Source of the DNA: a virus
Reading direction: 5' to 3' (one strand)
Virus record (IMG/VR): IMGVR_UViG_3300017917_003565
Span: 1 to 64,000 of that record
DNA length: 64,000 nucleotides
Part shown: one piece after another, positions 9,809 through 64,000 of the stretch
How the letters are laid out: every line of letters begins with the position of its first letter
Numbering within the stretch: position 1 is the first letter of the stretch
Program-made: the position numbers and the translations under genes
Notes under the pieces: generated by a model
The model's input: the letters and a program-made list of their open reading frames with translations, nothing else
Databases searched by the model: none
Told to the model about the DNA's origin: nothing

Positions 9809-12041
9809 CTACCATGGGCGACGCCTGTGGTAGGTCAATAGTGAAATCCACTGCTCCGTCTCGGAGATCTACATTGATCTGGCAGTTTTCCAGTTTGTCA
9901 AACAGTATACGCTTGCTCAAGGGCACGCGAATCAGCTCGTCGATTTTGCGTCCCAAAGGTCGTGCGCCCATTTTAGAATCATAGCCCTTGTCGGCCAGCA
10001 TGTCGATCACGGCCTCAGTTAATGACAGACGTATGTTCTTATTCAACAGGCTGTCTTTGAGCTCGTCTACAAACTTGAGCACCACTTTCTTCACTGCCAA
10101 GGTATCTAGTTTGTTGAACTTGCACACACAGTCTATCCTGTTGCGTAGTTCGGGTTTGAAAAACTCTTTCATGGCCCGGTCTTCGGATCCGGTTTTTTCC
10201 AAGCTCTGGCCAAAGCCAATGTTGTTGTTTTCATTGTCGCGAGCACCCAAGTTAGATGTCATGATGATGATGCAGTTTTTGAGATCCACGGTTTTGCCTG
10301 CGGTACCAGTGATTCGTGCTTCGTCTAACATCTGTAACATGATGTTAATCACATCTGGATGAGCTTTCTCTATCTCATCAAACAACAATATAGAGAAAGG
10401 ATGTTTGCTGACATCTGCAATGAGTTTGCCGCCACCTAGATTGCCATCTTCGAATCCTACATACCCAGGTGGTGCTCCAATCAGACCACTCACGGTGTGT
10501 CGTTCTTGATATTCACTCATGTCATATTTCAGCAGTTTCATATCAAGATTTTCTGCCAACAATCTGGCCAGTTCAGTTTTACCAGTGCCGGTGGGGCCCA
10601 GAAACAAAAAACTGGCTATAGGGCGACGGTTGTTGCCTATGCCGGAGAAGTTGATATACACCCGTTCCAGCACACGATCCACGGCATCATCTTGCCCATA
10701 GAGTCGTTGTTTGATGTTGCTTTCTAGCTCAGTGACTCTGGTGCTTCGCTCATTTTCTAAACGATCCAAAGGCACATCAGTCACGCGACTCAACTGTGCC
10801 ATGATCATGTCACGTGTGACTGTGATCAGGCCAGCATCCTTTACACGCTCTCTGGCGCAGGCACCATCCAACAAATCAATGCTCTTATCAGGATTCTTAC
10901 GATCATGCATGTAACGACCACTTAACTCTACTGCTGTGGTTATAGCTTCAGTATCGATTAGCACATTATGGAATGACTCCAGACGTGGACTCAATCCAAT
11001 CAGGATCTGTTCTGTAGTTGCGGCATCAGGTTCATCCACGCCCACTCTATGGAACCTGCGCATAAGTGCTCGATCCTTTTCAAAACTTTCATAAAACTCT
11101 TCCCAGGTAGTGTTGGCCACGACCTTGATGGCTCCACGTGTAATGGCTGGCTTCAACATATTGGCCATGTCTAGAGTGCTTTGACTGGAGCTTCCTGCAC
11201 CCTTGATAGTGTGCGCTTCGTCAATGAACAACACACAGTTTTTCTTGGTTTCCAGAGCGGTGATTACAGCCTTGAACTTTTCTTCAAACTCACCGCGATA
11301 TTTTGATCCGGCCAACAATGAGCCAACTTCTAGACTCCACACTTCGTGATCTTTCAAGAACTCTGGCACACGTCCAGCTGAGATTTCCTGTGCCAGACCT
11401 TCTACGATGGCAGTTTTGCCCACACCAGGATCTCCAACCATGAGCACATTGGCTTTGAACTTGCGTGCCAACACAGTGATTATTTCTTCTAACTCTGAGC
11501 TACGACCAATCATGGGTTCCAGGCGATCTTCTCGCGCCAACTGTGTGAGATTCACACAGTGCTCTGCAAGTATTTCTGTGGCCTGCTGATCGGTGAGTTG
11601 TACATCACTTTGTCTGTAGTTGCCCTGATAAAACTCCACAAACTCGGTTTTCTTTACTCCGTATTTGAGTAGGAAATAATGTGCGTGACTATTGGTCTCG
11701 GCCATCATGGCCAGGTAAAGATCAACAGTGCTGATGGTTCTACGACCCGTGAATAGAACCTGAGTAAGTGCTCGATTGAAACAGCGTTCTAATGCATTGG
11801 TCTTTTTGGGTTGAATGTCTTTGGTGGTGACCACCGAGGTCAGACCCGACAGGTATGCCAGCAGTTCGGAATCCAGCATGGCTACATCGGTGCCAAACTT
11901 CTCCAGCACACGGCGGAATGGTTCGTGACGTATCAGGGCCAACAACACATGTTCGGTCATGACATATTCGTGTCGTAGTTCTCGTGCCAGTTTGACCGCG
12001 GCATCAACTATCTGTTCGATTTCAGGATTGTTCTGCATCAT
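9762..12041 (-). CDS. clpA: ClpA-type AAA+ unfoldase (Clp ATPase)
   Basis: 759 residues, matching the 758 of E. coli ClpA. It has the Clp N-domain (MTEHVLLALIRHEPFRRVLE), a first AAA+ module with Walker A GDPGVGKTAIVEG and a Walker B ending in IDEAHTIKG, and a second with GPTGTGKTELARLLAENL and LLFDEIEKAHPDV, then the D2 small domain (KGYDSKMGARPLGRKIDE). Near residue 608, NENNNIGFGQ supplies the IGF/IGL loop used to dock on ClpP, so it could feed host ClpP. No clpP or clpS gene is in the window. A late TAAATA (12107-12112) and AAGGAA lie upstream; dnaJ precedes it. The exact target during infection is unknown. Confidence 0.95.
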   Translation of the reverse strand: MMQNNPEIEQIVDAAVKLARELRHEYVMTEHVLLALIRHEPFRRVLEKFGTDVAMLDSELLAYLSGLTSVVTTKDIQPKKTNALERCFNRALTQVLFTGRRTISTVDLYLAMMAETNSHAHYFLLKYGVKKTEFVEFYQGNYRQSDVQLTDQQATEILAEHCVNLTQLAREDRLEPMIGRSSELEEIITVLARKFKANVLMVGDPGVGKTAIVEGLAQEISAGRVPEFLKDHEVWSLEVGSLLAGSKYRGEFEEKFKAVITALETKKNCVLFIDEAHTIKGAGSSSQSTLDMANMLKPAITRGAIKVVANTTWEEFYESFEKDRALMRRFHRVGVDEPDAATTEQILIGLSPRLESFHNVLIDTEAITTAVELSGRYMHDRKNPDKSIDLLDGACARERVKDAGLITVTRDMIMAQLSRVTDVPLDRLENERSTRVTELESNIKQRLYGQDDAVDRVLERVYINFSGIGNNRRPIASFLFLGPTGTGKTELARLLAENLDMKLLKYDMSEYQERHTVSGLIGAPPGYVGFEDGNLGGGKLIADVSKHPFSILLFDEIEKAHPDVINIMLQMLDEARITGTAGKTVDLKNCIIIMTSNLGARDNENNNIGFGQSLEKTGSEDRAMKEFFKPELRNRIDCVCKFNKLDTLAVKKVVLKFVDELKDSLLNKNIRLSLTEAVIDMLADKGYDSKMGARPLGRKIDELIRVPLSKRILFDKLENCQINVDLRDGAVDFTIDLPQASPMVDADGYIRLDTPNSAI

Positions 12042-15882: not shown

Positions 15883-16296
15883 ACGAGGTCTGCCGGCAGT
15901 TACCCGTTGTATGAGTTCGGCGCTGTGTTCTATGTTGTTGTATTTGAGTCGGCAAAAAGTAGCACTCACAGGACCTTTGCTATAGGCCGTGTTCAACCCT
16001 TGTGCTATTTCGTTGAGGGCACGCGAAGCTCGATACCCATTTTCGTTGCGTGGAATCAGCTCTGAATATTTTTCATACAGTTCTGTCTTGGCAGCAACAG
16101 TCTGAGCATTTTGTGGTGCCAACATAGGATTATCACATTGTCGTCGATATTGTATGGCCTGTGTGCGAATCTCTGTGATCAAGAGATATTCGTTGGCATC
16201 ATAAGGTGCCATGAAGTAGGCATCCCAGAGAGCACATCCACTGAGTGCGGTGGTCGTCACAGTTGCCAACAATAATCTACGCATATTTCTCATCAA
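15880..16296 (-). CDS. Phage lipoprotein
   Basis: 138 residues (or 137 from the second Met). [25 protein letters not shown] is a lipoprotein signal with lipobox LSGC. The mature part is helical with two further cysteines ([18 protein letters not shown]). Its ATG overlaps the stop of the isocitrate lyase gene, so the two are co-translated; its end overlaps the late box of the next operon. Envelope location follows from the lipobox; function unknown. Confidence 0.8.
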
Positions 16297-17579
16297 TGAA
16301 ATTGACCTTCCTCTGTGGAACCCTTCATAGCTGTGGTAGATGAATCACGCTCGATAGTAGTGGTCACTGCATCAAAATAGGTGGTGCCCACTTCGCGCTG
16401 ATGCTTGACAGCAGTGAATCCACGATCAGCCGCAGCAAATTCTTGTTCCTGCAGTTTCACAAAACTGGTCATTCCATCTCGTGCATAACCGTGTGCTAGA
16501 TCAAACATACCATAGTTGAGCTGATGGAACCCGGCCAAGGTGATGAACTGAAACTTGTAACCCATGGCACCTAGTTCGCGTTGGAACTTGGCGATGGTAG
16601 CGTCATCGAGATTTTTCTTCCAGTTAAAACTGGGTGAACAGTTGTAGCTCAACATCTTGCCAGGGAACTGTTTATGGATGGCTTCAGCAAAGGCCCGGGC
16701 AAATGCCAGATCTGGTACTCCGGTCTCGCACCATACCAAGTCAGCATAGGGCGCATAGGCTAATCCGCGGCTTATGGCTTGGTTAAGTCCGTTGGCAGTG
16801 CGGTAGAAGCCTTCAACGGTGCGCTCGCCAGTGAGGAATGGTTGGTCAATGGGGTCAACATCGGATGTCACTAGATCTGCGGCCTCAGCATCAGTTCTAG
16901 CAATAAGGACAGTAGGAACGCCAAGCACATCACTAGCAAGACGTGCAGCGATGAGTTTCGCCACTGCTTCTCGAGTCGGGACCAGTACCTTTCCTCCCAT
17001 GTGTCCGCACTTCTTGACCGAGGCAAGTTGATCTTCGAAGTGGACTCCTGCGGCTCCTGCATGTATCATTCCTTTCATCAATTCAAAAGCATTTAACACA
17101 CCACCAAAGCCGGCTTCGGCGTCGGCCACGATGGGAACAAAATAATCTACATCATCTATGCCTTCCATCCACTGTATCTCGTCCGCACGCTTGAAAGTGT
17201 TGTTGATGCGGCGTACCACTGCGGGCACTGAATTGACCGGATACAGGCTCTGGTCCGGGTACATTTCGGATCCGAGATTGGCGTCAGCGGCCACTTGCCA
17301 ACCCGACAGATATATGGCACGCAACCCGGCCTTGGCCTGTTGTAGTGCCTGCATGCCTGTGAGTGCGCCCAGGGCGTTGACATAGTCGGTGGTTGTAAGA
17401 TCTCGCCACAAGCGATCAGCACCACGTTTTGCCAGGGTACATTCTTCTTGCACGCTGCCTCGCAATCGCACTACATCTTCTGCGGTGTATTCTCTTTTGA
17501 TGCCGGCCCATCTAGGGTTATCGGTCCAGTCCATCTGCAGAGCATAGGCTTGATGATTGCGGTCTTTGTTGTGATCCAT
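16293..17579 (-). CDS. aceA: Isocitrate lyase
   Basis: 428 residues from the ATG at 17579 ([20 protein letters not shown]); E. coli AceA has 434. AAGGAG and a TAAATA box (17603-17608) define this start, so a longer in-frame ATG at 17648 is rejected. The catalytic loop [13 protein letters not shown] (Cys near residue 190), [26 protein letters not shown] and [15 protein letters not shown] are all present, so it should be active: isocitrate to glyoxylate plus succinate. It lies between a lysis-type cassette and a lipoprotein. No malate synthase is in the window. In a phage this would be a metabolic gene diverting the TCA cycle to the glyoxylate shunt. Confidence 0.95.
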
Positions 17580-17602
17580 TGTGGTTCTCCTTGTTGATAC
17601 GA

Positions 17603-17608
17603 TATTTA
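17603..17608 (-). promoter_or_regulatory. Late-type TAAATA box upstream of isocitrate lyase
   Basis: CAAATAAATATCG on the minus strand, 23 nt before the aceA ATG and followed by AAGGAGAA. Confidence 0.5.
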
Positions 17609-17640
17609 TTTGCAGTGCAACAAGATTCTCAGTTTTTGGG

Positions 17641-17979
17641 TCAAGCACTGTCTTTTTTATTGGCCATGTATTTGTCCATGATAGCGTTGCCCACCCAAAC
17701 AGCCATATAACCTACAAAATACCATTCTGGAAAGTTACTGGGATTGTTTACTAAAATATAGATAAACCCCCAGGTGCTGATGACCCAGGCACCAAATCTG
17801 GTGAACTTCTTTTCATCTAAATGACCATCAGTGGACACTAGATCAGTGAGATCCAGTTTGTCATTGGGGTTGCGTGTCATCTGGATCAAGGTAATAATAA
17901 TGATCAACACCAACAGGGCCAGCAACAGTTCCATGGTATTGGCAGATGTGAAATAATTCATGAATTTTTCAAAGGTCAT
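17641..17979 (-). CDS. Small membrane protein in lysis cassette (holin/antiholin candidate)
   Basis: 112 residues with three hydrophobic segments: [16 protein letters not shown] (about 19-35), [16 protein letters not shown] (about 62-80) and [17 protein letters not shown] (about 85-104). The C-terminus is basic and charged. It follows the Rz1-like gene with an ATGA overlap, which places it in the lysis operon. Holin or antiholin is inferred from position and topology; no family motif recognised. Confidence 0.65.
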
Positions 17980-38547: not shown

Positions 38548-38548
38548 G

Positions 38549-38650
38549 TTATACGCTACCCATCATGTTGCCAATAAAAAAACATACTACGCCAACCAAT
38601 GCTATAAAACCCCACTTGATATATACCCATTTGGATTTGATATCTACCAT
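38549..38650 (-). CDS. 33-residue single-pass membrane peptide
   Basis: MVDIKSKWVYIKWGFIALVG then VVCFFIGNMMGSV. One transmembrane helix with a basic N-terminus. A strong AAGGAG lies 7 nt before the ATG, and the gene exactly fills the gap between two genes. It resembles other small phage membrane peptides; function unknown. Confidence 0.6.
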   Translation of the reverse strand: MVDIKSKWVYIKWGFIALVGVVCFFIGNMMGSV

Positions 38651-38669
38651 ATTTTTCTCCTTTTGATTT

Positions 38670-38903
38670 TTATTGTGGTTGTTGCAGTTGTTCCCACATG
38701 TATTCCGAATCTTTGATCCAGGCTTCGGTAGAAATCCAACCTTTGCTTATGGCCAACTGAACAATCTTTTGCACATCAGCAGGGCACGATGATTCAATGG
38801 TGATGGCCGCACGTGGGTAATAGGCAAACCCTGAAACGATACAAAAGTCTTCGTCTTTGGCTGTTAGTCTACGCAACTGCGGATTGTCATATCTCAAGTT
38901 CAA
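38670..38903 (-). CDS. Small early phage protein (TTG start)
   Basis: 77 residues starting LRYDNPQLRRLTAKDEDFC with TTG as start codon, supported by TAGGAG 7 nt upstream. Middle segment CIVSGFAYYPRAAITIESSC, end WIKDSEYMWEQLQQPQ. It has its own sigma70 promoter (38932-38960). Unknown function. Confidence 0.7.
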   Translation of the reverse strand: MNLRYDNPQLRRLTAKDEDFCIVSGFAYYPRAAITIESSCPADVQKIVQLAISKGWISTEAWIKDSEYMWEQLQQPQ

Positions 38904-38931
38904 AATAAAACTCCTATTTTACTATACCAAT

Positions 38932-38960
38932 ATTATAGCACGATAGGAGTTTTTGGTCAA
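38932..38960 (-). promoter_or_regulatory. Sigma70-type early promoter
   Basis: GGTTGACC, 17 nt, TATAAT. The -35 box is TTGACC (38955-38960), the -10 is TATAAT (38932-38937). It drives the 38903 gene. Confidence 0.75.
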
Positions 38961-38965
38961 CCATA

Positions 38966-40230: not shown

Positions 40231-40751
40231 TCCACATTGGGCGGAGGCATGGCCTTTAGTTTATCCCACACTGATTGTTTTTCTTTGATGTGTTTTTCCA
40301 AAGCTCGATAGCGATCACCCAGTTCTCGCAGTTCCTGCCATTCAGATTCCAGAGCTGGATTTACGGTCAACAGATTCAATCTTTCTCGAATTTCGCGTAT
40401 GGAGCCCATGAGACTTTCGCCATTGATTTCGATGTCAGCATCTTCACCGTTGACTTGTAGTTTGGCACCGGTGGGATTGCTGGTAATCCAGGGAGCCACG
40501 GTAGCTGTCCCTGTGTTGGTCCAAACATTGGGATAAGCATACCCGTTGGTCCCACTGACGTTATTGATCGCAGTAAGATCGCTGATGGTCAGAGTGGGCA
40601 CCGTGCCGCTGGCAGTGTAATAATCACCATCACCACTGTAGGAACCAATATGGCTGAAATCGAGCGTGATGCTGTTATTGTCATTGATGATGATGCTGTC
40701 ATCCATGGTTTGAGAGGCTGTGCCCGGAGGCACATTTATTGTAAGTGACAT
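40227..40751 (-). CDS. Phage structural-type protein
   Basis: 174 residues. N-terminal beta-rich part (MSLTINVPPGTASQTMDDSI), then KLQVNGEDADIEINGESLMG and a helical end (IREIRERLNLLTVNPALESE then WQELRELGDRYRALEKHIKE). The GEDADIEINGESLMGSI block with the following coiled coil is a layout I associate with conserved phage structural proteins. It is coupled to serC by TAATG. Confidence 0.7.
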   Translation of the reverse strand: MSLTINVPPGTASQTMDDSIIINDNNSITLDFSHIGSYSGDGDYYTASGTVPTLTISDLTAINNVSGTNGYAYPNVWTNTGTATVAPWITSNPTGAKLQVNGEDADIEINGESLMGSIREIRERLNLLTVNPALESEWQELRELGDRYRALEKHIKEKQSVWDKLKAMPPPNVD

Positions 40752-41839
40752 TAGGCTTTCCTTTCGAACTCACGCATGAATTCCACCAGTGCTTGTACGC
40801 CTGCCACAGGCATGGCGTTGTAGATGCAGGCACGCATACCGCCGGCCAGTTTGTGCCCACGCAGAGCTATCAGCCCTGCTTCGGTTGATTGGGTCAAAAA
40901 CTTTTCATTCAATCCTTCATCTTTGAGATAAAACGTCACATTGGCCCGAGAACGGCACTCCGGACTGACCCGATTTTCATACAGCGAACTGGAATCAATG
41001 TAGTCGTACAACAAAGATGACTTGATTTTGCCAAGCCGTTCCATTTCTGCCACTCCGCCTTGGCGTTTGAGCCATTTCAACACCAGTCCAGAAACATAGA
41101 TTGCAAAAGTAGGTGGAGTGTTTACCCAAGGCACAGTATTTTTGGCCCAGTCCCAAATGGTCGGAGTTATGGGCATGGCGTGTCCCAACAGATCCCGGCG
41201 AACTATGACCACAGTGACTCCGGCTGGCCCTATGTTTTTTTGTGCTGCAGCAAACAACACTCCGCACTTACTGACGTCCATGTGCCTTGATAGGATATTG
41301 CTAGAGACATCAGCCACTAATGGCACTCCCGCGGTATCAGGAAAATCTTCAAACTCCACTCCGCCTACAGTTTCGTTGGAACAGATATGCACATAAGCTG
41401 CATCTTGAGAGAGATTCCATTGATCGCGATCTGGAATGCTGGTAAACTGACCATTGGATGGACAAGCCACGATGTTTGCCTGCCCATATTTTTGTGCTTC
41501 TTGGGCCGACATCTCAGACCAGATACCAGTGACAACAAAATCAGCTGTGCGATTCTTGGACAATGGCAAGAGATTCATGGGTATGGCTGCATTTTGTCCA
41601 ATACCTCCTCCCTGCAACATCAATATTTCATAGTCATCGGGAATCGCCATCAACTCACGTAGGTCAGCCAATGTTTCATAATAGACTTCTAAGAACTCCT
41701 GGCTACGATGGTTGAGTTCCATCATGCTGGTGCCTACACCGTTCCAGTTCAACATTTCGTCGGCGACCTGTTGTAGGACTTCTTCAGGTAGAGCCGACGG
41801 TCCGGGAGTGAAGTTGTAAACCCGATGATCAAACTTCAT
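40751..41839 (-). CDS. serC: Phosphoserine aminotransferase
   Basis: 362 residues, the same length as E. coli SerC. The PLP lysine is in FAAAQKNIGPAGVTVV; NFTPGPSALPEEVLQQ, VGTSMMELNHRSQEF, MLQGGGIGQNAAIPMNL and LRGHKLAGGMRACIYNAM are all conserved. It transfers the amino group of glutamate to 3-phosphohydroxypyruvate (serine) and in bacteria also acts in pyridoxal-phosphate synthesis. No Shine-Dalgarno is visible before the ATG, so it probably depends on coupling to the upstream Hc1-like gene. Serine biosynthesis in a phage is uncommon. Confidence 0.95.
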   Translation of the reverse strand: MKFDHRVYNFTPGPSALPEEVLQQVADEMLNWNGVGTSMMELNHRSQEFLEVYYETLADLRELMAIPDDYEILMLQGGGIGQNAAIPMNLLPLSKNRTADFVVTGIWSEMSAQEAQKYGQANIVACPSNGQFTSIPDRDQWNLSQDAAYVHICSNETVGGVEFEDFPDTAGVPLVADVSSNILSRHMDVSKCGVLFAAAQKNIGPAGVTVVIVRRDLLGHAMPITPTIWDWAKNTVPWVNTPPTFAIYVSGLVLKWLKRQGGVAEMERLGKIKSSLLYDYIDSSSLYENRVSPECRSRANVTFYLKDEGLNEKFLTQSTEAGLIALRGHKLAGGMRACIYNAMPVAGVQALVEFMREFERKA

Positions 41840-41844
41840 GATGA

Positions 41845-42033
41845 TTAGGTTTTTTGAGCCAGGGCTTCTTTTTCTGCGGTGATTTCTTTACGGCGTTCTT
41901 TGATGGCCTTGCTCATTTCTTGCAGAGCTTTGCGGGCGCGGGCAGCCGAGGCTTTGACGCCTTTGCCGGAGAACTTGTCATTTTCAGCCAAGTAGGTTTC
42001 GAATGCTGTTTTGATTGCTTCGTGATTGCTCAT
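41845..42033 (-). CDS. Hc1-like small histone-type protein
   Basis: 62 residues: MSNHEAIKTAFETYLAENDK then FSGKGVKASAARARKALQEM and KAIKERRKEITAEKEALAQK. The KASAARARKAL helix with a basic, charged tail resembles the bacterial histone H1-like Hc1 family. It may bind DNA. AAGGAAA precedes the ATG and a sigma70 promoter lies upstream. Confidence 0.65.
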   Translation of the reverse strand: MSNHEAIKTAFETYLAENDKFSGKGVKASAARARKALQEMSKAIKERRKEITAEKEALAQKT

Positions 42034-42338: not shown

Positions 42339-42575
42339 CTAGTGTAGAACTTGATCAACAGGTCTAGGCTCGTTGACTTGCTCTACATATTTAACGAATT
42401 CGTCGTCAATAATCAGTCTCTCGTCGTCGTGGGCCTGTGCCTGCTCGTCTGGCACTCCCAAAATCCTCATGAGGCCGCCAACATGAACTTCGGTTATACC
42501 ACAGTCATGCAATACCACGCAGAGATTTAGAATCGACAGGCGTATGGCCTGATCAACAGGAAGATCGTCCAGCAT
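42339..42575 (-). CDS. Small conserved-looking phage protein
   Basis: 78 residues: MLDDLPVDQAIRLSILNLCV then VLHDCGITEVHVGGLMRILG and acidic end. The LHDCGITEVHVGGLMRILG segment reads like a short helix-turn region, possibly DNA- or protein-binding. Unknown function. Confidence 0.65.
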   Translation of the reverse strand: MLDDLPVDQAIRLSILNLCVVLHDCGITEVHVGGLMRILGVPDEQAQAHDDERLIIDDEFVKYVEQVNEPRPVDQVLH

Positions 42576-42589
42576 AACACATACTTATG

Positions 42590-42868
42590 CTATCGGTATC
42601 GGCTTTCAATTTCTTGGGGTGATGATGGAACCACGCCTGTGGTCACTGTGTGTATTTTAACGATGCCGGATTCTTGGCACACAGGCTCGTCGGCAAATGC
42701 CCGGCTCACACGACAATCTTTGTTGTTTACGGCACTAACAGCATGGTCAGTTACTGTGCGTCCAGTAGTTTCACTCACAGCCACACTGCCTATGCCCAGT
42801 CCGGTGAGTACCATGGGAGTAGCACAACCCGACAATGCTACGGTACAGATCAACAGACAGCGGATCAT
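42590..42868 (-). CDS. Small lipoprotein
   Basis: 92 residues. MIRCLLICTVALSGCATPMV is a lipoprotein signal with lipobox LSGC. The mature part is Gly/Ser rich and has two cysteines (NKDCRVSRAF; EPVCQESG). AGGAGA precedes the ATG. It follows a structured intergenic RNA region. Envelope location inferred from the lipobox; function unknown. Confidence 0.75.
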   Translation of the reverse strand: MIRCLLICTVALSGCATPMVLTGLGIGSVAVSETTGRTVTDHAVSAVNNKDCRVSRAFADEPVCQESGIVKIHTVTTGVVPSSPQEIESRYR

Positions 42869-43193
42869 GAGCTCTCCTATGTAAGTGCCCGGCTACCTTA
42901 TGTCACAGGCCCCGGGCTGGAATAATACCAATTCGATGTGCTGTTTACTATCCCGCCGCAGTCGGTGTGGCCAAGTTTAAGGACTCACTACCACCAACCC
43001 GCACCACTAAGGCTGGTGCGCCGCCCTTCATTTGCCCCGAAGCCGGGTTGACATAGGTTTTGCTACTGGACTATTTGCTAGACCTCAACGGCTTTACTCG
43101 AGTTTACGGTTTATTGATCTAGTTAGTCAGGCTTGATCCGGTCCATCGCTTCCAATAGCAAAACCTATATCAGGGGGCGAACCCCCTGTGGTA
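42869..43193 (-). ncRNA. Candidate structured noncoding RNA (325-nt intergenic)
   Basis: No convincing ORF. On the minus strand: a GC hairpin with a tetraloop (43171-43188), a 13-bp perfect inverted repeat (43053-43065 with 43156-43168), extended by 3 bp after one mismatch and enclosing about 90 nt, a CCCG(GCTT)CGGG hairpin, a 7-bp hairpin (43000-43020) and a GCCCGG/CCGGGC stem near the lipoprotein start. A trans-acting RNA or long 5' leader is possible; I match no known family. Confidence 0.5.
43171..43188 (-). terminator. Strong GC hairpin after the 43194 gene
   Basis: CAGGGGG, TTCG, CCCCCTG: 7-bp stem with a UUCG loop, ending five bases after the stop at 43194. No T-run, so it could stabilise or cap an RNA end rather than terminate. 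Confidence 0.5.
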
Positions 43194-43517
43194 TTAGGCT
43201 ACTTCTTTAACTGCAGATTTTGCAGATGCTTTAGTTGCCTTGACCTTGACTTCACCGCGCTTGGCGATCTTGGTCTTCTCAGCCAGTTTGTTGGCTACTG
43301 CATAGCCAGCGTCGCCAGTCATGCCCAAAGTCTGCAAGTGCTGGAGAGCTTCTAACTTGGTCATTGCCTTGGGCAATTCGATCAAGTTAATGTTGGTGCA
43401 ACCTGCTTTGTTGAGGATCTTGATACGAGCTACCAAGTCATTGGCGAAACGAGCTTTGACAGTACCGTTAGGGTTCTGTGCCGTACCTGCTACTGTGAAT
43501 AACTTTTCTGCTGCCAT
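43194..43517 (-). CDS. Small phage protein with basic tail
   Basis: 107 residues: MAAEKLFTVAGTAQNPNGTV then KARFANDLVARIKILNKAGC and a basic, Ala/Lys tail (KVKATKASAKSAVKEVA). Good ribosome-binding site AAAGGCAAC, shared with the 60934 gene. A consensus sigma70 promoter lies upstream. Compact N-terminal domain with a disordered basic end; a nucleic-acid-binding role is possible. Confidence 0.72.
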   Translation of the reverse strand: MAAEKLFTVAGTAQNPNGTVKARFANDLVARIKILNKAGCTNINLIELPKAMTKLEALQHLQTLGMTGDAGYAVANKLAEKTKIAKRGEVKVKATKASAKSAVKEVA

Positions 43518-43579
43518 TTTGTGTTGCCTTTCTAAGTTGCCTTACTAGTTGATAAAAGTTTACTGCTACTACAATGACC

Positions 43580-43608
43580 ATTATACTTGAAATCGAAATC
43601 AATGTCAA
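43580..43608 (-). promoter_or_regulatory. Consensus sigma70 promoter
   Basis: GGTTGACA (TTGACA 43603-43608), 17 nt, TATAAT (43580-43585), upstream of the 43517 gene. Confidence 0.8.
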
Positions 43609-43637
43609 CCATAATAGTCATATCTGGTTTACCAAAA

Positions 43638-43769
43638 TCACTTGTTTTGGTCTAAGATATTGGTAACCACACTGTTGGTAGTGTCCACAGCCTGTGCCAA
43701 AAGACTCTTGGTCACGGCCGGGTGTAACACCGCCAGGGTCACTAGGATACCAAAAATAAATCCTTTCAT
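43638..43769 (-). CDS. 43-residue membrane peptide
   Basis: MKGFIFGILVTLAVLHPAVT then KSLLAQAVDTTNSVVTNILD and QNK. One transmembrane/signal segment followed by an amphipathic helix. GGAGG lies 6 nt before the ATG, which overlaps the upstream stop (ATGA). Tightly linked to the entericidin-like gene. Confidence 0.6.
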   Translation of the reverse strand: MKGFIFGILVTLAVLHPAVTKSLLAQAVDTTNSVVTNILDQNK

Positions 43770-43942
43770 CTGGAACCTCCAGTCATTTTGTCACGGGTCC
43801 ATTCTGACGCAGATGTCACGTCTTTGCCCAGACCGGCCACTGTGCCGCAACCCGTGATCATGAATACTGCTACCATGATCAAGGCCACCACACCCAGCGT
43901 AGGGCCATTCAGGGCCAACCATGCTACAAGTCGATCTTTCAT
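43766..43942 (-). CDS. Entericidin-like small lipoprotein
   Basis: 58 residues: MKDRLVAWLALNGPTLGVVA then LIMVAVFMITGCGTVAGLGK and DVTSASEWTRDKMTGGSR. The ITGCGTVAGLGKD motif closely follows entericidin (EcnA/EcnB) lipoproteins (GC.TVxGxGxD). A strong AGGAGG precedes the ATG. Entericidins act in programmed cell death in bacteria; here it may help lysis or membrane stress. The assignment rests on a short motif. Confidence 0.6.
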   Translation of the reverse strand: MKDRLVAWLALNGPTLGVVALIMVAVFMITGCGTVAGLGKDVTSASEWTRDKMTGGSR

Positions 43943-46086: not shown

Positions 46087-46117
46087 ATCTGCTCCTTTTT
46101 TTTAATATTGGGTGGGG

Positions 46118-46150
46118 TGTAGAGTTGGCCTGCACTTAGTTGACTCTACA
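46118..46150 (-). repeat. Hairpin in the long leader of the 46086 gene
   Basis: TGTAGAGT and ACTCTACA form a perfect 8-bp stem with a 17-nt loop. It sits in the unusually long leader (about 115 nt) between early promoter copy 2 and AAGGAGCAG. Confidence 0.55.
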
Positions 46151-46205
46151 TTAAGGCGTTTACCGGTATTGCCAGTCGCCGCCCCATAAACTTAACTATA
46201 ACTAT

Positions 46206-46235
46206 ATTATAACCGAAATGGGTATTTCTGGTCAA
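46206..46235 (-). promoter_or_regulatory. Early promoter module copy 2
   Basis: GGTTGACCAGAAATACCC, 18 nt spacer, TATAATATAG. TTGACC (46230-46235) and TATAAT (46206-46211). Confidence 0.75.
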
Positions 46236-46265
46236 CCACTGCTAAACTGCGTGGTTGGCATGCAC

Positions 46266-46496
46266 TTACCTAGTGAAAAATAGCCCTACCAAGTAGATGC
46301 ACAGTAAACCCAGATTTACAGTAATCATGGCCAGTTCACGAATACGCAAGGCCCAGATCACGAACACCAAACTGCCCAGGTTCAAGAGATACACATTGAG
46401 TGGATCGATCCTTAGGCTAGTACACAAGGCACCAGCCAAGGTGATGATAGTGCCGGCCCATTTCAGGGCCCAGGTCAGTCTATCGTTGCGGTTCAA
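46266..46496 (-). CDS. Three-helix small membrane protein (paralog of 55262)
   Basis: 76 residues: RLTWALKWAGTIITLAGALC then IDPLNVYLLNLGSLVFVIWA and ITVNLGLLCIYLVGLFFTR. Three transmembrane helices. It aligns along its whole length with the 55262-55492 product (NLG, WxxxAxxxRE and VNxGLL positions shared). Overlaps the upstream gene by 4 bp. Function unknown. Confidence 0.75.
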   Translation of the reverse strand: MNRNDRLTWALKWAGTIITLAGALCTSLRIDPLNVYLLNLGSLVFVIWALRIRELAMITVNLGLLCIYLVGLFFTR

Positions 46497-47572: not shown

Positions 47573-48106
47573 TCACAGTGTCTCACCGCCCACAGCACGA
47601 TTACATGCACACTTCTCACCGGTCTGCAGGGCATCCAATATACGAAGAGTTTCATCGGAACTGCGACCAACGTTCAAGTTGTTGACTGTAACGTGCTGGA
47701 TAACACCTTCTGGATCCACAATGAATGTTGCACGGAGTGCAGCGCCTGCTGGTGAGTAGAACACACCCAGTTGATCAATCAAGCTCAACTCACCACGTTG
47801 GGTGTCAGCGAACTGGATGTGGCGGATCTTCTTGAGATCTTCATGTGCGGATTGCCATGCCAACTTACAGAACTCATTGTCTGTTGACCCTGTGAGCAGA
47901 ACGGCGTCGCGGTCCGCAAAATCCTGGAATAACTTGTCGTAGGCCACGATCTCTGTGGGGCATACGAATGTAAAGTCCTTGGGGTAGTACACAATGACTT
48001 TCCACTTGCCAGCGAACGATTCGTCGGTGATGGTAAAGAAATCGTCTTTGCCTGGATTCACGCCGGTCACGGCAAACTTGGTGATTTTATCTCCTACTGT
48101 TTTCAT
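47573..48106 (-). CDS. ahpC: AhpC-type peroxiredoxin (three-Cys, AhpD-dependent type)
   Basis: 177 residues. The peroxidatic Cys is in YPKDFTFVCPTEIVAYDKLF, and the C-terminal KCACNRAVGGETL has the CxC pair typical of the M. tuberculosis AhpC, which is reduced by AhpD instead of AhpF. It reduces hydrogen and organic peroxides. A sigma70 promoter (48162-48191) with a leader hairpin precedes it, and ahpD lies downstream. Probably protects infected cells from peroxide stress. Confidence 0.93.
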   Translation of the reverse strand: MKTVGDKITKFAVTGVNPGKDDFFTITDESFAGKWKVIVYYPKDFTFVCPTEIVAYDKLFQDFADRDAVLLTGSTDNEFCKLAWQSAHEDLKKIRHIQFADTQRGELSLIDQLGVFYSPAGAALRATFIVDPEGVIQHVTVNNLNVGRSSDETLRILDALQTGEKCACNRAVGGETL

Positions 48107-61063: not shown

Positions 61064-64000
61064 ATGACCCAATATGTTATCAACATCGGAGCCTTGCCCA
61101 ATGATGGCACGGGCGATCCGCTTAGAACCGCTTTTAACGAAGTAAATCTCAACTTTGACCAGGTTTTCGCCGCGGGTCCGGTACTGAGCAATATTCGGAT
61201 AGCCAACAACACCATACTCACTACCAACACCAATGGAAACTTGGTTTTGGCACCCAATGGCATAGGCCTAGTGCAATCCAATGTCAGCATCGTGCCTAAC
61301 TCGGCCAACATACGCAATCTAGGAAGCGCAGATCGTCGTTGGAGCACGGTGTACACACAGTATCTGGACGTTTCGGCCAATCTCACCATCAGCGGAAACA
61401 TCATCTACAACGGCGACCTAAATGTGGCCGGAAATCTCACAGTCAATGGCGATCTTATCGAAGTCGGCAACATCGTCACAGACAGTAAAACCATACAGTT
61501 AGCCAACACCGCAGGTACTACCGCCGCTGCCAACGGGTCGGGTATCACTGTGGGGGCCAACGATCTTATAGCCACTTACCTTTTTGACAGCTCAGCTGAT
61601 GCCTGGACCACCAATATCGGCATTACGGCCGTGGGCAATATAGCAGCACCTTATTTCTTGGGCAACGGTAGCCAGCTTTCCGGCGTACGAGCAGATACCT
61701 TGGTCGGCAACACCCTGAGTTCCAATGTGTTGTTCTCCAGCCTAACTTCCGTGGGCACCTTGACTGCGCTAAATGTAACTGGCAATGTTTCAGCCACGGG
61801 CAACATCATTGGTGGCAATGTTGAAACCACAGGACTGATCACAGCCACGGGCAACATTATTGGCGGCAACATCACTACCACAGGCAATGTGTCTGCAGAT
61901 TATGTCATAGTAGCCGGAGGAATCGTAGCCGAAGCATCGGCCAGTCCGGCTCCTAGCTTATCAGGATTTGGCAATATCACTAGCGGTAATCTTATCACCA
62001 CAGGGATGGTAACAGCCACTGGCAATGTCACAGGTGGCAATGTTGCCAGCGGTAACCTGATCACTGGTGTAACTCTGCAGGTGTCTGATGCCACTGTGTA
62101 TGGCAACGTTGACAGTGTCATGGTCAATGCCACGGGCAACGTAGTCGCAGGACAATATTTTATTGGTGACGGTAGTTTACTCACAGGCATTGGTGCCAGC
62201 TACAACGATGCTGACGTAGCCAACTTGTTGGCGGCATTCGGTGCTAATATTATCAACAGCACTGGCAACATCACCACCACTGCCAATGTGTCCGGCGGTT
62301 ACATACTAGGAGATGGTAGCCAGCTTACCAACTTGCCAGTACAACCCGGCACTTATGGTGACTCCAACGTAGTCACATTGTTGGGTGCATTTGGCAGCAA
62401 CAATGTATCGACCACGGGCAACATCACAGCCGGATTGTTGATAGGCAATGGATCGGTTCTAACTGACATCACTGGAGCCAACGTCACAGGAACTGTGGCA
62501 AATGCGTCCTACGCCACTTCGGCAGGTTCCGCGACTACTGCCACTTCGGCCACTACTGCTAACACAGTGACTGACGCAGCACAACCCAATATCACAAGTG
62601 TAGGCACATTGACCAGTGTGACCAGCTCGGGTAACGTACAAGGCGGTAACTTGTTGACTGGCGGACTAATTTCGGCCGCTGGTAATGTTACAGGTGCTTA
62701 TATATTTGGTAACGGTAGCCAACTCACTGACATCAATGCCGTCACGATAGATATAACCGATACCAACGGGTTGACCACCGTATACTACCCAACTTTTGTA
62801 GAGAACAGAAGCACAGGACAGATCGCCCGTGCCGATGTGGACCTTTCATATCGCACAGACACCAATACGTTGACCGTGGGCAATCTATCAGCCACTGGCA
62901 ACGTCACAGGCACATTTATACTTGGCAACGGATCACAACTTACTGGCATCATTAGTAGCTATGGCGATTCCAATGTGGCCACATTGTTGGCCAACTTTGG
63001 TTCCAACGCAGTATCAACCACAGGCAACGTGACCAGTGGTAATCTAACAACTTCTGGTACTGTGTCAGCCACAGGCAATGTCAACAGCAACGAAATCAAT
63101 GCCAATCGAGCGGTACTAGGAAACATTGGTGGTAGTAGTATTTCTGCCGATGGTCGTATTTTCACCAGCGGCAATGTGGTTGCAGGAAACGTAAACTCAA
63201 ACGGTATACTTTTTTCCACAGGCAACATCGTTGGTCCACATGTCAATGTCACTGGAAATGTAGTAGCTGGCAATGTCAACTCCAATGGCTTGTTGTTTGC
63301 TGTCGGCAACATCGTTGGTGCTAACTTAGATTCTTATGGTATTATCACAGCGATTGGTAATGTCACTACCAATGCCAACGTCAATGCCAACAACTTGCAT
63401 GCATCAAATCGACTCAGTGTTACCGGTAACATAGTAGCCGGCAATGTCAACTCCAATGGCTTGTTGTTTGCTACAGGTAACGTAGTGGGCGGCAATGTCA
63501 ACTCCAATGGTAGAATTTTTGCGTCAGGCAATATACAAGGTGCTAACATTGACACCACTGGATCAATTTCAGCTGTGGGTAATGTGATTGGTGATTACTT
63601 CTTTGGTAACGGTAGCCAACTTACTGGCATTGTAGTTTCTGGAGGAACTTCCATAGACAATGGCATATCAAATGTGAGCATAGCTTCTGCTAATGGTCCA
63701 ATCACTGTGTCATACAATGGCAGCGGCAATACCTGGACATTTGGCAATACAAGTGTTCCACAAGCTCTGTATTGGCCGGATGGATCATTCCAGGCCACAG
63801 CCTTTGTGGGCCAGGCCACAGACTTGGTCAGTACAGGTAATGCCACAATCACCAGCGATGCGCTTGGTGTATCATATGTATGGACCTTTGACGATATTGG
63901 AAATCTCACTCTGCCTACCAACGGTAGTATTGTTGTAGATGGCGGCGATGGTGCGATTGGCCCGGTCAGCGACGACTTAGTTATCTCATGGGACAACGAG
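61064..64000 (+). CDS. Giant tail fibre with ATGNVTGGN repeats, cut by window end
   Basis: 979 codons are visible and the reading frame is still open at the window end. It begins MTQYVINIGALPNDGTGDPL then RTAFNEVNLNFDQVFAAGP, a virion-attachment module. The body has dozens of ATGNVTGGN-type repeats with GNGSQLTGI and NVxTLLxxFGSNxxSTTGN modules shared with the minus-strand fibres at 30742 and 34467. It is the only long plus-strand gene besides phoH. Probably a host-recognition fibre. Confidence 0.92.
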   Translation, partial: MTQYVINIGALPNDGTGDPLRTAFNEVNLNFDQVFAAGPVLSNIRIANNTILTTNTNGNLVLAPNGIGLVQSNVSIVPNSANIRNLGSADRRWSTVYTQYLDVSANLTISGNIIYNGDLNVAGNLTVNGDLIEVGNIVTDSKTIQLANTAGTTAAANGSGITVGANDLIATYLFDSSADAWTTNIGITAVGNIAAPYFLGNGSQLSGVRADTLVGNTLSSNVLFSSLTSVGTLTALNVTGNVSATGNIIGGNVETTGLITATGNIIGGNITTTGNVSADYVIVAGGIVAEASASPAPSLSGFGNITSGNLITTGMVTATGNVTGGNVASGNLITGVTLQVSDATVYGNVDSVMVNATGNVVAGQYFIGDGSLLTGIGASYNDADVANLLAAFGANIINSTGNITTTANVSGGYILGDGSQLTNLPVQPGTYGDSNVVTLLGAFGSNNVSTTGNITAGLLIGNGSVLTDITGANVTGTVANASYATSAGSATTATSATTANTVTDAAQPNITSVGTLTSVTSSGNVQGGNLLTGGLISAAGNVTGAYIFGNGSQLTDINAVTIDITDTNGLTTVYYPTFVENRSTGQIARADVDLSYRTDTNTLTVGNLSATGNVTGTFILGNGSQLTGIISSYGDSNVATLLANFGSNAVSTTGNVTSGNLTTSGTVSATGNVNSNEINANRAVLGNIGGSSISADGRIFTSGNVVAGNVNSNGILFSTGNIVGPHVNVTGNVVAGNVNSNGLLFAVGNIVGANLDSYGIITAIGNVTTNANVNANNLHASNRLSVTGNIVAGNVNSNGLLFATGNVVGGNVNSNGRIFASGNIQGANIDTTGSISAVGNVIGDYFFGNGSQLTGIVVSGGTSIDNGISNVSIASANGPITVSYNGSGNTWTFGNTSVPQALYWPDGSFQATAFVGQATDLVSTGNATITSDALGVSYVWTFDDIGNLTLPTNGSIVVDGGDGAIGPVSDDLVISWDNE

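Follow-up and report, generated by a model that had tools for sequence, protein, structure and literature searches.

What occupies a long stretch without recognised genes in a virus whose genes otherwise lie close together? The question was raised by a window of 64,000 nucleotides taken from an IMG/VR virus record of 112 kb (IMGVR_UViG_3300017917_003565) for which the nearest isolate clamp loaders, about 50% identical to that of the window, come from PA5oct-type Pseudomonas phages. The original prediction, made from the sequence alone, had described a 325-nt gap between a small gene and a lipoprotein gene, in a genome where gaps are otherwise tiny, and had proposed a possible new RNA there. 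The gap was confirmed at its exact coordinates (42869-43193), and its exceptional size broadly held, with a median intergenic gap of 19 nt and this one ranking fourth largest in a crude gene call. The proposal of a new RNA is supported, the element being absent from Rfam and having relatives in dozens of phages. The earlier reading had missed three points: the gap combines two distinct RNAs (one of them still a candidate) with a hairpin; these RNAs are also met in tRNA arrays of phages and ahead of GOLLD RNAs; and the loops of one of them are self-complementary, which is the strongest finding of this analysis.

The gap and its gene surroundings

Both genes flanking the gap, encoding a 107-aa protein and a lipoprotein, lie on the minus strand, which is also the sense strand of the gap. 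Folding of the minus strand beat that of shuffled sequences (z = -2.98), while the plus strand showed no such excess (z = -0.81). The 13-bp perfect inverted repeat noted originally was recovered and exceeds chance, as 150 dinucleotide shuffles never gave more than 11 bp; when two mismatches are allowed, it extends to arms of 22 nt separated by 80 nt. The claim of a UUCG-type hairpin held only in part: the UUCG loop is present, but with its G-C closure it differs from the classical cUUCGg tetraloop. The statement that no open reading frame or known riboswitch signature is recognisable also held. No credible ORF exists on the coding strand, and the idea that the gap encodes a small protein was rejected on that ground; no tRNA was found there, and no family of Rfam 15, riboswitches included, matched the gap at gathering scores or at E-values up to 10. 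A match to the Rfam family MEG8_3 was discarded as a chance hit located inside a neighbouring gene, and a ribozyme or intron identity was set aside, as inspection by eye recognised no known core and Rfam gave no match. The gap region was unmatched in isolate phages.

Table 1. Positions of the gap elements and of the neighbouring features in the window.
Feature	Position	Strand	Description and basis
Sigma-70 promoter	43608-43580	minus	consensus TTGACA-17-TATAAT; 12/12 consensus match
107-aa gene	43194-43517	minus	upstream neighbour of the gap RNAs
Hairpin C	43171-43188	minus	CAGGGGG-UUCG-CCCCCUG, directly behind the 107-aa gene; sequence
Module A	43051-43170	minus	120 nt; P1 closing stem, P2 hairpin, P3/P3b hairpin; covariance model and covariation
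P1, 5' arm	43151-43169	minus	inverted repeat I1; compensatory changes
P2 hairpin	43126-43147	minus	8-nt loop CGGAUCAA; covariation alignment and loop analysis
P2 loop palindrome	43135-43138	minus	GAUC; loop analysis
P3 and P3b arm	43078-43122	minus	compensatory changes
P3b loop palindrome	43097-43102	minus	CUCGAG; sequence, palindromic in relatives while the letters change
P1, 3' arm	43052-43070	minus	inverted repeat I1; compensatory changes
Module B	~42881-43055	minus	second structured RNA candidate, ending in hairpin GCCCGG...CCGGGC; homologues, weak covariation
Lipoprotein gene	42590-42868	minus	downstream of the gap RNAs

The gap elements are listed in Table 1, together with a consensus promoter, unmentioned in the original prediction, that precedes the 107-aa gene and hence the gap too. 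IMG/VR contains 133 relatives of the 107-aa protein, and none were found in isolate phages; the family is known from uncultured phages only and matches nothing in Pfam or PHROG. Among these relatives, the gap behind the gene varies from one phage to another: it shrinks to 7 nt in L021, the shortest case, and contains a plain hairpin in L004, module A alone in L007, L009, L012 and L013, module B behind another stem in L003, and modules A and B together in L006 as in the window. Because gap contents differ in this way, we regard the two modules as separate units that come and go.

Module B has homologues in L003, L006, L008, L022 and L128, giving six members with the window, and the copy of L128 lies inside a tRNA array. 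Across these six sequences only five of the 27 predicted pairs received compensatory support, and module B thus remains an unproven candidate, probably a second array-borne RNA that has been carried along. The position of hairpin C is taken in relatives by variable GGGG/CCCC hairpins. It lacks the T run of an intrinsic terminator, and no minus-strand terminator was found in 42500-43800. A compound hairpin, GGGGC-GGACGCTGGGTGTAGGCCCAGAC-TAAGTCCCC, recurs directly behind the 107-aa gene in L002, L006 and L014, with a conserved 3' side and a variable insert, and could be another structured element.

Several observations concern the wider surroundings. Three further long gaps appeared in the crude gene call (38548-38965, 46087-46492 and 62191-62784). 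A 62-aa protein (41845-42033) matches Pfam Hc1, a histone H1-like protein, with an E-value of 1.6e-11. Genes resembling serC (a full-length phosphoserine aminotransferase-like gene, 40751-41839), a peroxiredoxin (47573-48106) and an isocitrate lyase (16293-17648) were named by eye only and may be auxiliary metabolic genes.

Module A, a structured RNA of phage tRNA arrays

An absence of covariation would have refuted the original prediction, and for module A the covariation is clear. In an alignment of 33 IMG/VR homologues, built with MAFFT on sequence only, compensatory changes on both sides were found in 30 of the 36 pairs (17/18 in P1, 6/7 in P3 and 3/4 in P3b), and 92% of cells were paired. 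The covariation score was 0.581, versus 0.05-0.08 when the 3' partners were slid by one to three columns. An alignment of 52 members gave the same outcome, though it was fitted to the model. The copy of the window, whose P2 and P3b stems carry one mismatch each, scored 105.9 bits against our covariance model R1 (E = 4e-19). The junction letters AAGC, GUAAC and GCA-A-AGU are nearly invariant among members, partly as an effect of the search baits, and an invariant pair is uninformative by itself. Module A is thus a real structured non-coding RNA with a three-way junction, shown by covariation beyond the controls. No description of it was found in the literature searched, and, judged by this literature and by Rfam 15, it represents a new family of RNAs.

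A scan for the conserved core returned 43 stretches in IMG/VR, most of them in phage tRNA arrays. Since the scans were baited with conserved junction letters, members without those letters will have been missed, and all data on module A derive from metagenomic records, mostly fragments. Of the 52 aligned members, 22 directly adjoin the 3' end of a same-strand tRNA, with the start of P1 falling on the CCA end of the tRNA or beside it. Seven others follow the 107-aa gene, and another seven lie between a promoter and a GOLLD RNA, ahead of where GOLLDs devoid of module A begin. Six of these GOLLD-linked members show the Rfam GOLLD domain at a near-constant distance (415-439 nt); in the seventh (L116), GOLLD was judged from the sequence behind module A. 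The tree of module A requires at least 12 location changes, and every carrier record tested (35/35) has exactly one copy, including that of the window. Many of the carriers are large uncultured phages. The 112-kb record of the window, probably itself a fragment, showed neither a tRNA nor a GOLLD. No match was found in isolate phages when two module A subtypes were searched, and of 13 pattern matches in bacterial and archaeal genomes none was scored by the covariance model.

Three loci (L091 at 10655-10689, L105 and L121) were left out of the family, as they have in common only the P3b hairpin letters GUAAACUCGAGUAARGC on another scaffold, with no tRNAs nearby; this hairpin may be a distant relative of module A or merely a shared loop motif. 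Candidates for permuted tmRNAs were also noticed in phage contigs with tRNA arrays (L083, 2777-3297; L118, 11618-11990).

Two alternative explanations were weighed. The first sees a MITE-like hairpin, a mobile element without phage function, and the several unrelated locations and repeated location changes speak for it. Against it stand the single copy per genome in all 35 records and the near-invariant nucleotides of the junction and the loop flanks; terminal repeats and target duplications were likewise not seen, albeit without a systematic search. We therefore consider this explanation very unlikely. The second sees a piece of GOLLD RNA, kept as a relic, in line with L094-096, L101, L114 and L115, where module A precedes the same-strand Rfam GOLLD domain by about 420 nt. 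However, G010, G011 and G014 have GOLLDs that begin right after the promoter and lack module A, and no GOLLD is seen in most records that carry module A; these observations exclude module A as an integral part of GOLLD and leave little room for a relic.

Self-complementary loops and the self-binding hypothesis

The first scan fixed CUCGAG in the P3b loop, the second freed its four central bases and the third freed both loops. Most extra matches of the second scan were coding-like, went unrecognised by the covariance model and were rejected. The new members brought in by the freed scans carry the P3b loops CACGUG, CUGCAG, CGGCCG, CGAUCG and CAUAUG, all perfect palindromes, so that with CUCGAG six distinct hexamers are known and all 52 aligned rows are palindromic. 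In the loop-free scan, 27 of 27 distinct P3b cores were palindromic, versus a mean of 9.0 when letters were shuffled within columns, and none of 20000 shuffles reached 27. Kinship among members inflates this statistic, and the tree counts for more: built without the loop columns, it requires at least five changes of the P3b hexamer and at least eight of the P2 core. The P2 cores are GAUC, GUAC, GCGC, GGCC, ACGU and CUAG, plus one GAUU that can pair with itself via G-U. In the subgroup of the window, the P3b hexamer is invariant.

Intramolecular pairing between adjacent loop bases is impossible, and we therefore read loops that change yet stay palindromic as the signature of homotypic kissing loops. 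Pairing between the P2 and P3b loops was considered and dropped, as their palindromes are not mutually complementary in the variants seen together. Kretsch et al. (2025, PMC12286853) invoked palindrome switching in favour of the intermolecular kissing loops of OLE and GOLLD, whose bridges they observed by cryo-EM. A palindrome kept through paired changes is one of two criteria for a symmetric kissing-loop RNA homo-oligomer, the other being a physical oligomer, and module A satisfies the former.

The palindromes could alternatively be DNA-level sites for a symmetric protein (a methyltransferase, recombinase or nuclease), with the transcript incidental, and every P3b hexamer is indeed also a typical symmetric DNA target sequence. 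Against this reading, the palindromes are placed precisely in the loops of stems kept by compensatory change, they lie on the same strand as the adjoining tRNAs, GOLLD or gene, and a single copy per genome would be odd for a modification site; we hold it to be very unlikely.

A more serious rival is a cis-acting element controlling the processing, stability or translation of its own transcript, with loops that bind a protein or the ribosome. Cleavage of the stem by RNase III and covering of a start codon by the 3' arm of P1 would be possible details. In favour of such an element are the UTR-like settings of module A, either downstream of tRNAs (the tRNA 3' end and P1 share 2-4 nt) or in the interval separating a promoter from GOLLD; downstream ORFs that start at the 3' end of P1 (L166, L168, L188, L196 and L197); and a lipoprotein frame that begins within the stem in L007 (a possible GTG within module A) and in L004 (the ATG in ...CAATGTC). 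These last starts suggest that translational control at the lipoprotein locus is conceivable. However, exactly one copy per record between unrelated neighbours on both sides fits a trans-acting RNA better, and palindromes that change yet are kept in both loops are left unexplained. Such a cis function in processing or translation cannot be dismissed, and it could operate alongside self-binding.

Our preferred reading is that module A molecules bind one another through two loop contacts, which seems likely, although dimerisation is inferred from sequence alone. The fold, the distribution, the single copy per record and the preservation of the palindromes are shown; transcription and the kissing-loop contact between molecules are inferred, without RNA-seq, gel or structure. 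Module A would be transcribed within a longer transcript, behind the promoter and the 107-aa gene here and behind tRNAs or ahead of GOLLD elsewhere. The long P1 stem would isolate it from the surrounding transcript and the three-way junction would present two hairpins, the loops of which would display self-complementary sequences of 4 nt (the P2 core) and 6 nt (P3b). Two molecules could then pair loop-to-loop at two places, giving a homodimer or a chain. Release of module A by cleavage in P1 is a guess, as is a role in trans, for instance in gathering tRNA precursors, GOLLD or module A itself into an assembly.

A bolder reading, which we offer as no more than a possibility, takes module A to be a two-valent RNA that recognises itself. 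Every lineage of phages would have its own pair of palindromes, the RNA and the tRNA or GOLLD transcripts joined to it would assemble only with themselves, as chains or closed particles, and lineages would drift to mutually non-pairing versions.

Relation to known self-assembling and phage RNAs

Module A resembles the GOLLD, ROOL and OLE oligomers in style and not in ancestry, and no tested family includes it. GOLLD (RF02032) is likewise phage-borne and found in or near tRNA arrays; it forms an RNA-only oligomer through self-complementary kissing loops whose palindromes switch between relatives (PMC12286853), as the loop palindromes do in module A. GOLLD, however, exceeds 800 nt and has its own fold, whereas module A spans about 120 nt and does not match RF02032; where both occur, module A precedes the GOLLD start. 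The RF02032 model, which covers the conserved 3' domain, gave no match at its gathering score in the window or in the whole 112-kb record. ROOL and OLE are natural RNA homo-oligomers formed via kissing loops, the contact inferred here for module A, and ROOL is also associated with phages and tRNA islands (PMC12286853). Both differ from module A in size, fold and sequence, and their Rfam models gave no match at gathering scores in the window or in 13 other loci.

The retroviral dimerisation initiation site is a hairpin loop whose 6-nt palindrome, flanked by purines, mediates formation of an RNA homodimer (reviewed in PMC5874298). Module A shares the purine-flanked 6-nt loop palindrome but, unlike that site, carries two such loops on one three-way junction, belongs to DNA phages and is not, as far as known, a genome-packaging signal. 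Stable RNAs C and D of phage T4 are small non-tRNA RNAs encoded in the tRNA cluster of the phage. Module A is likewise a small non-tRNA RNA met among phage tRNA genes; it gave no match in isolate phages.

Natural self-assembling RNAs are rare, and the structures of the large phage RNAs GOLLD and ROOL, of unknown function, were solved only in 2025. With its 120 nt, its setting in phage tRNA arrays and its two co-varying palindromic loops, module A would, if the self-binding reading is true, offer a small and easily handled case of self-assembly. It further strengthens the case that the tRNA arrays of phages are a source of structured RNAs not yet catalogued.
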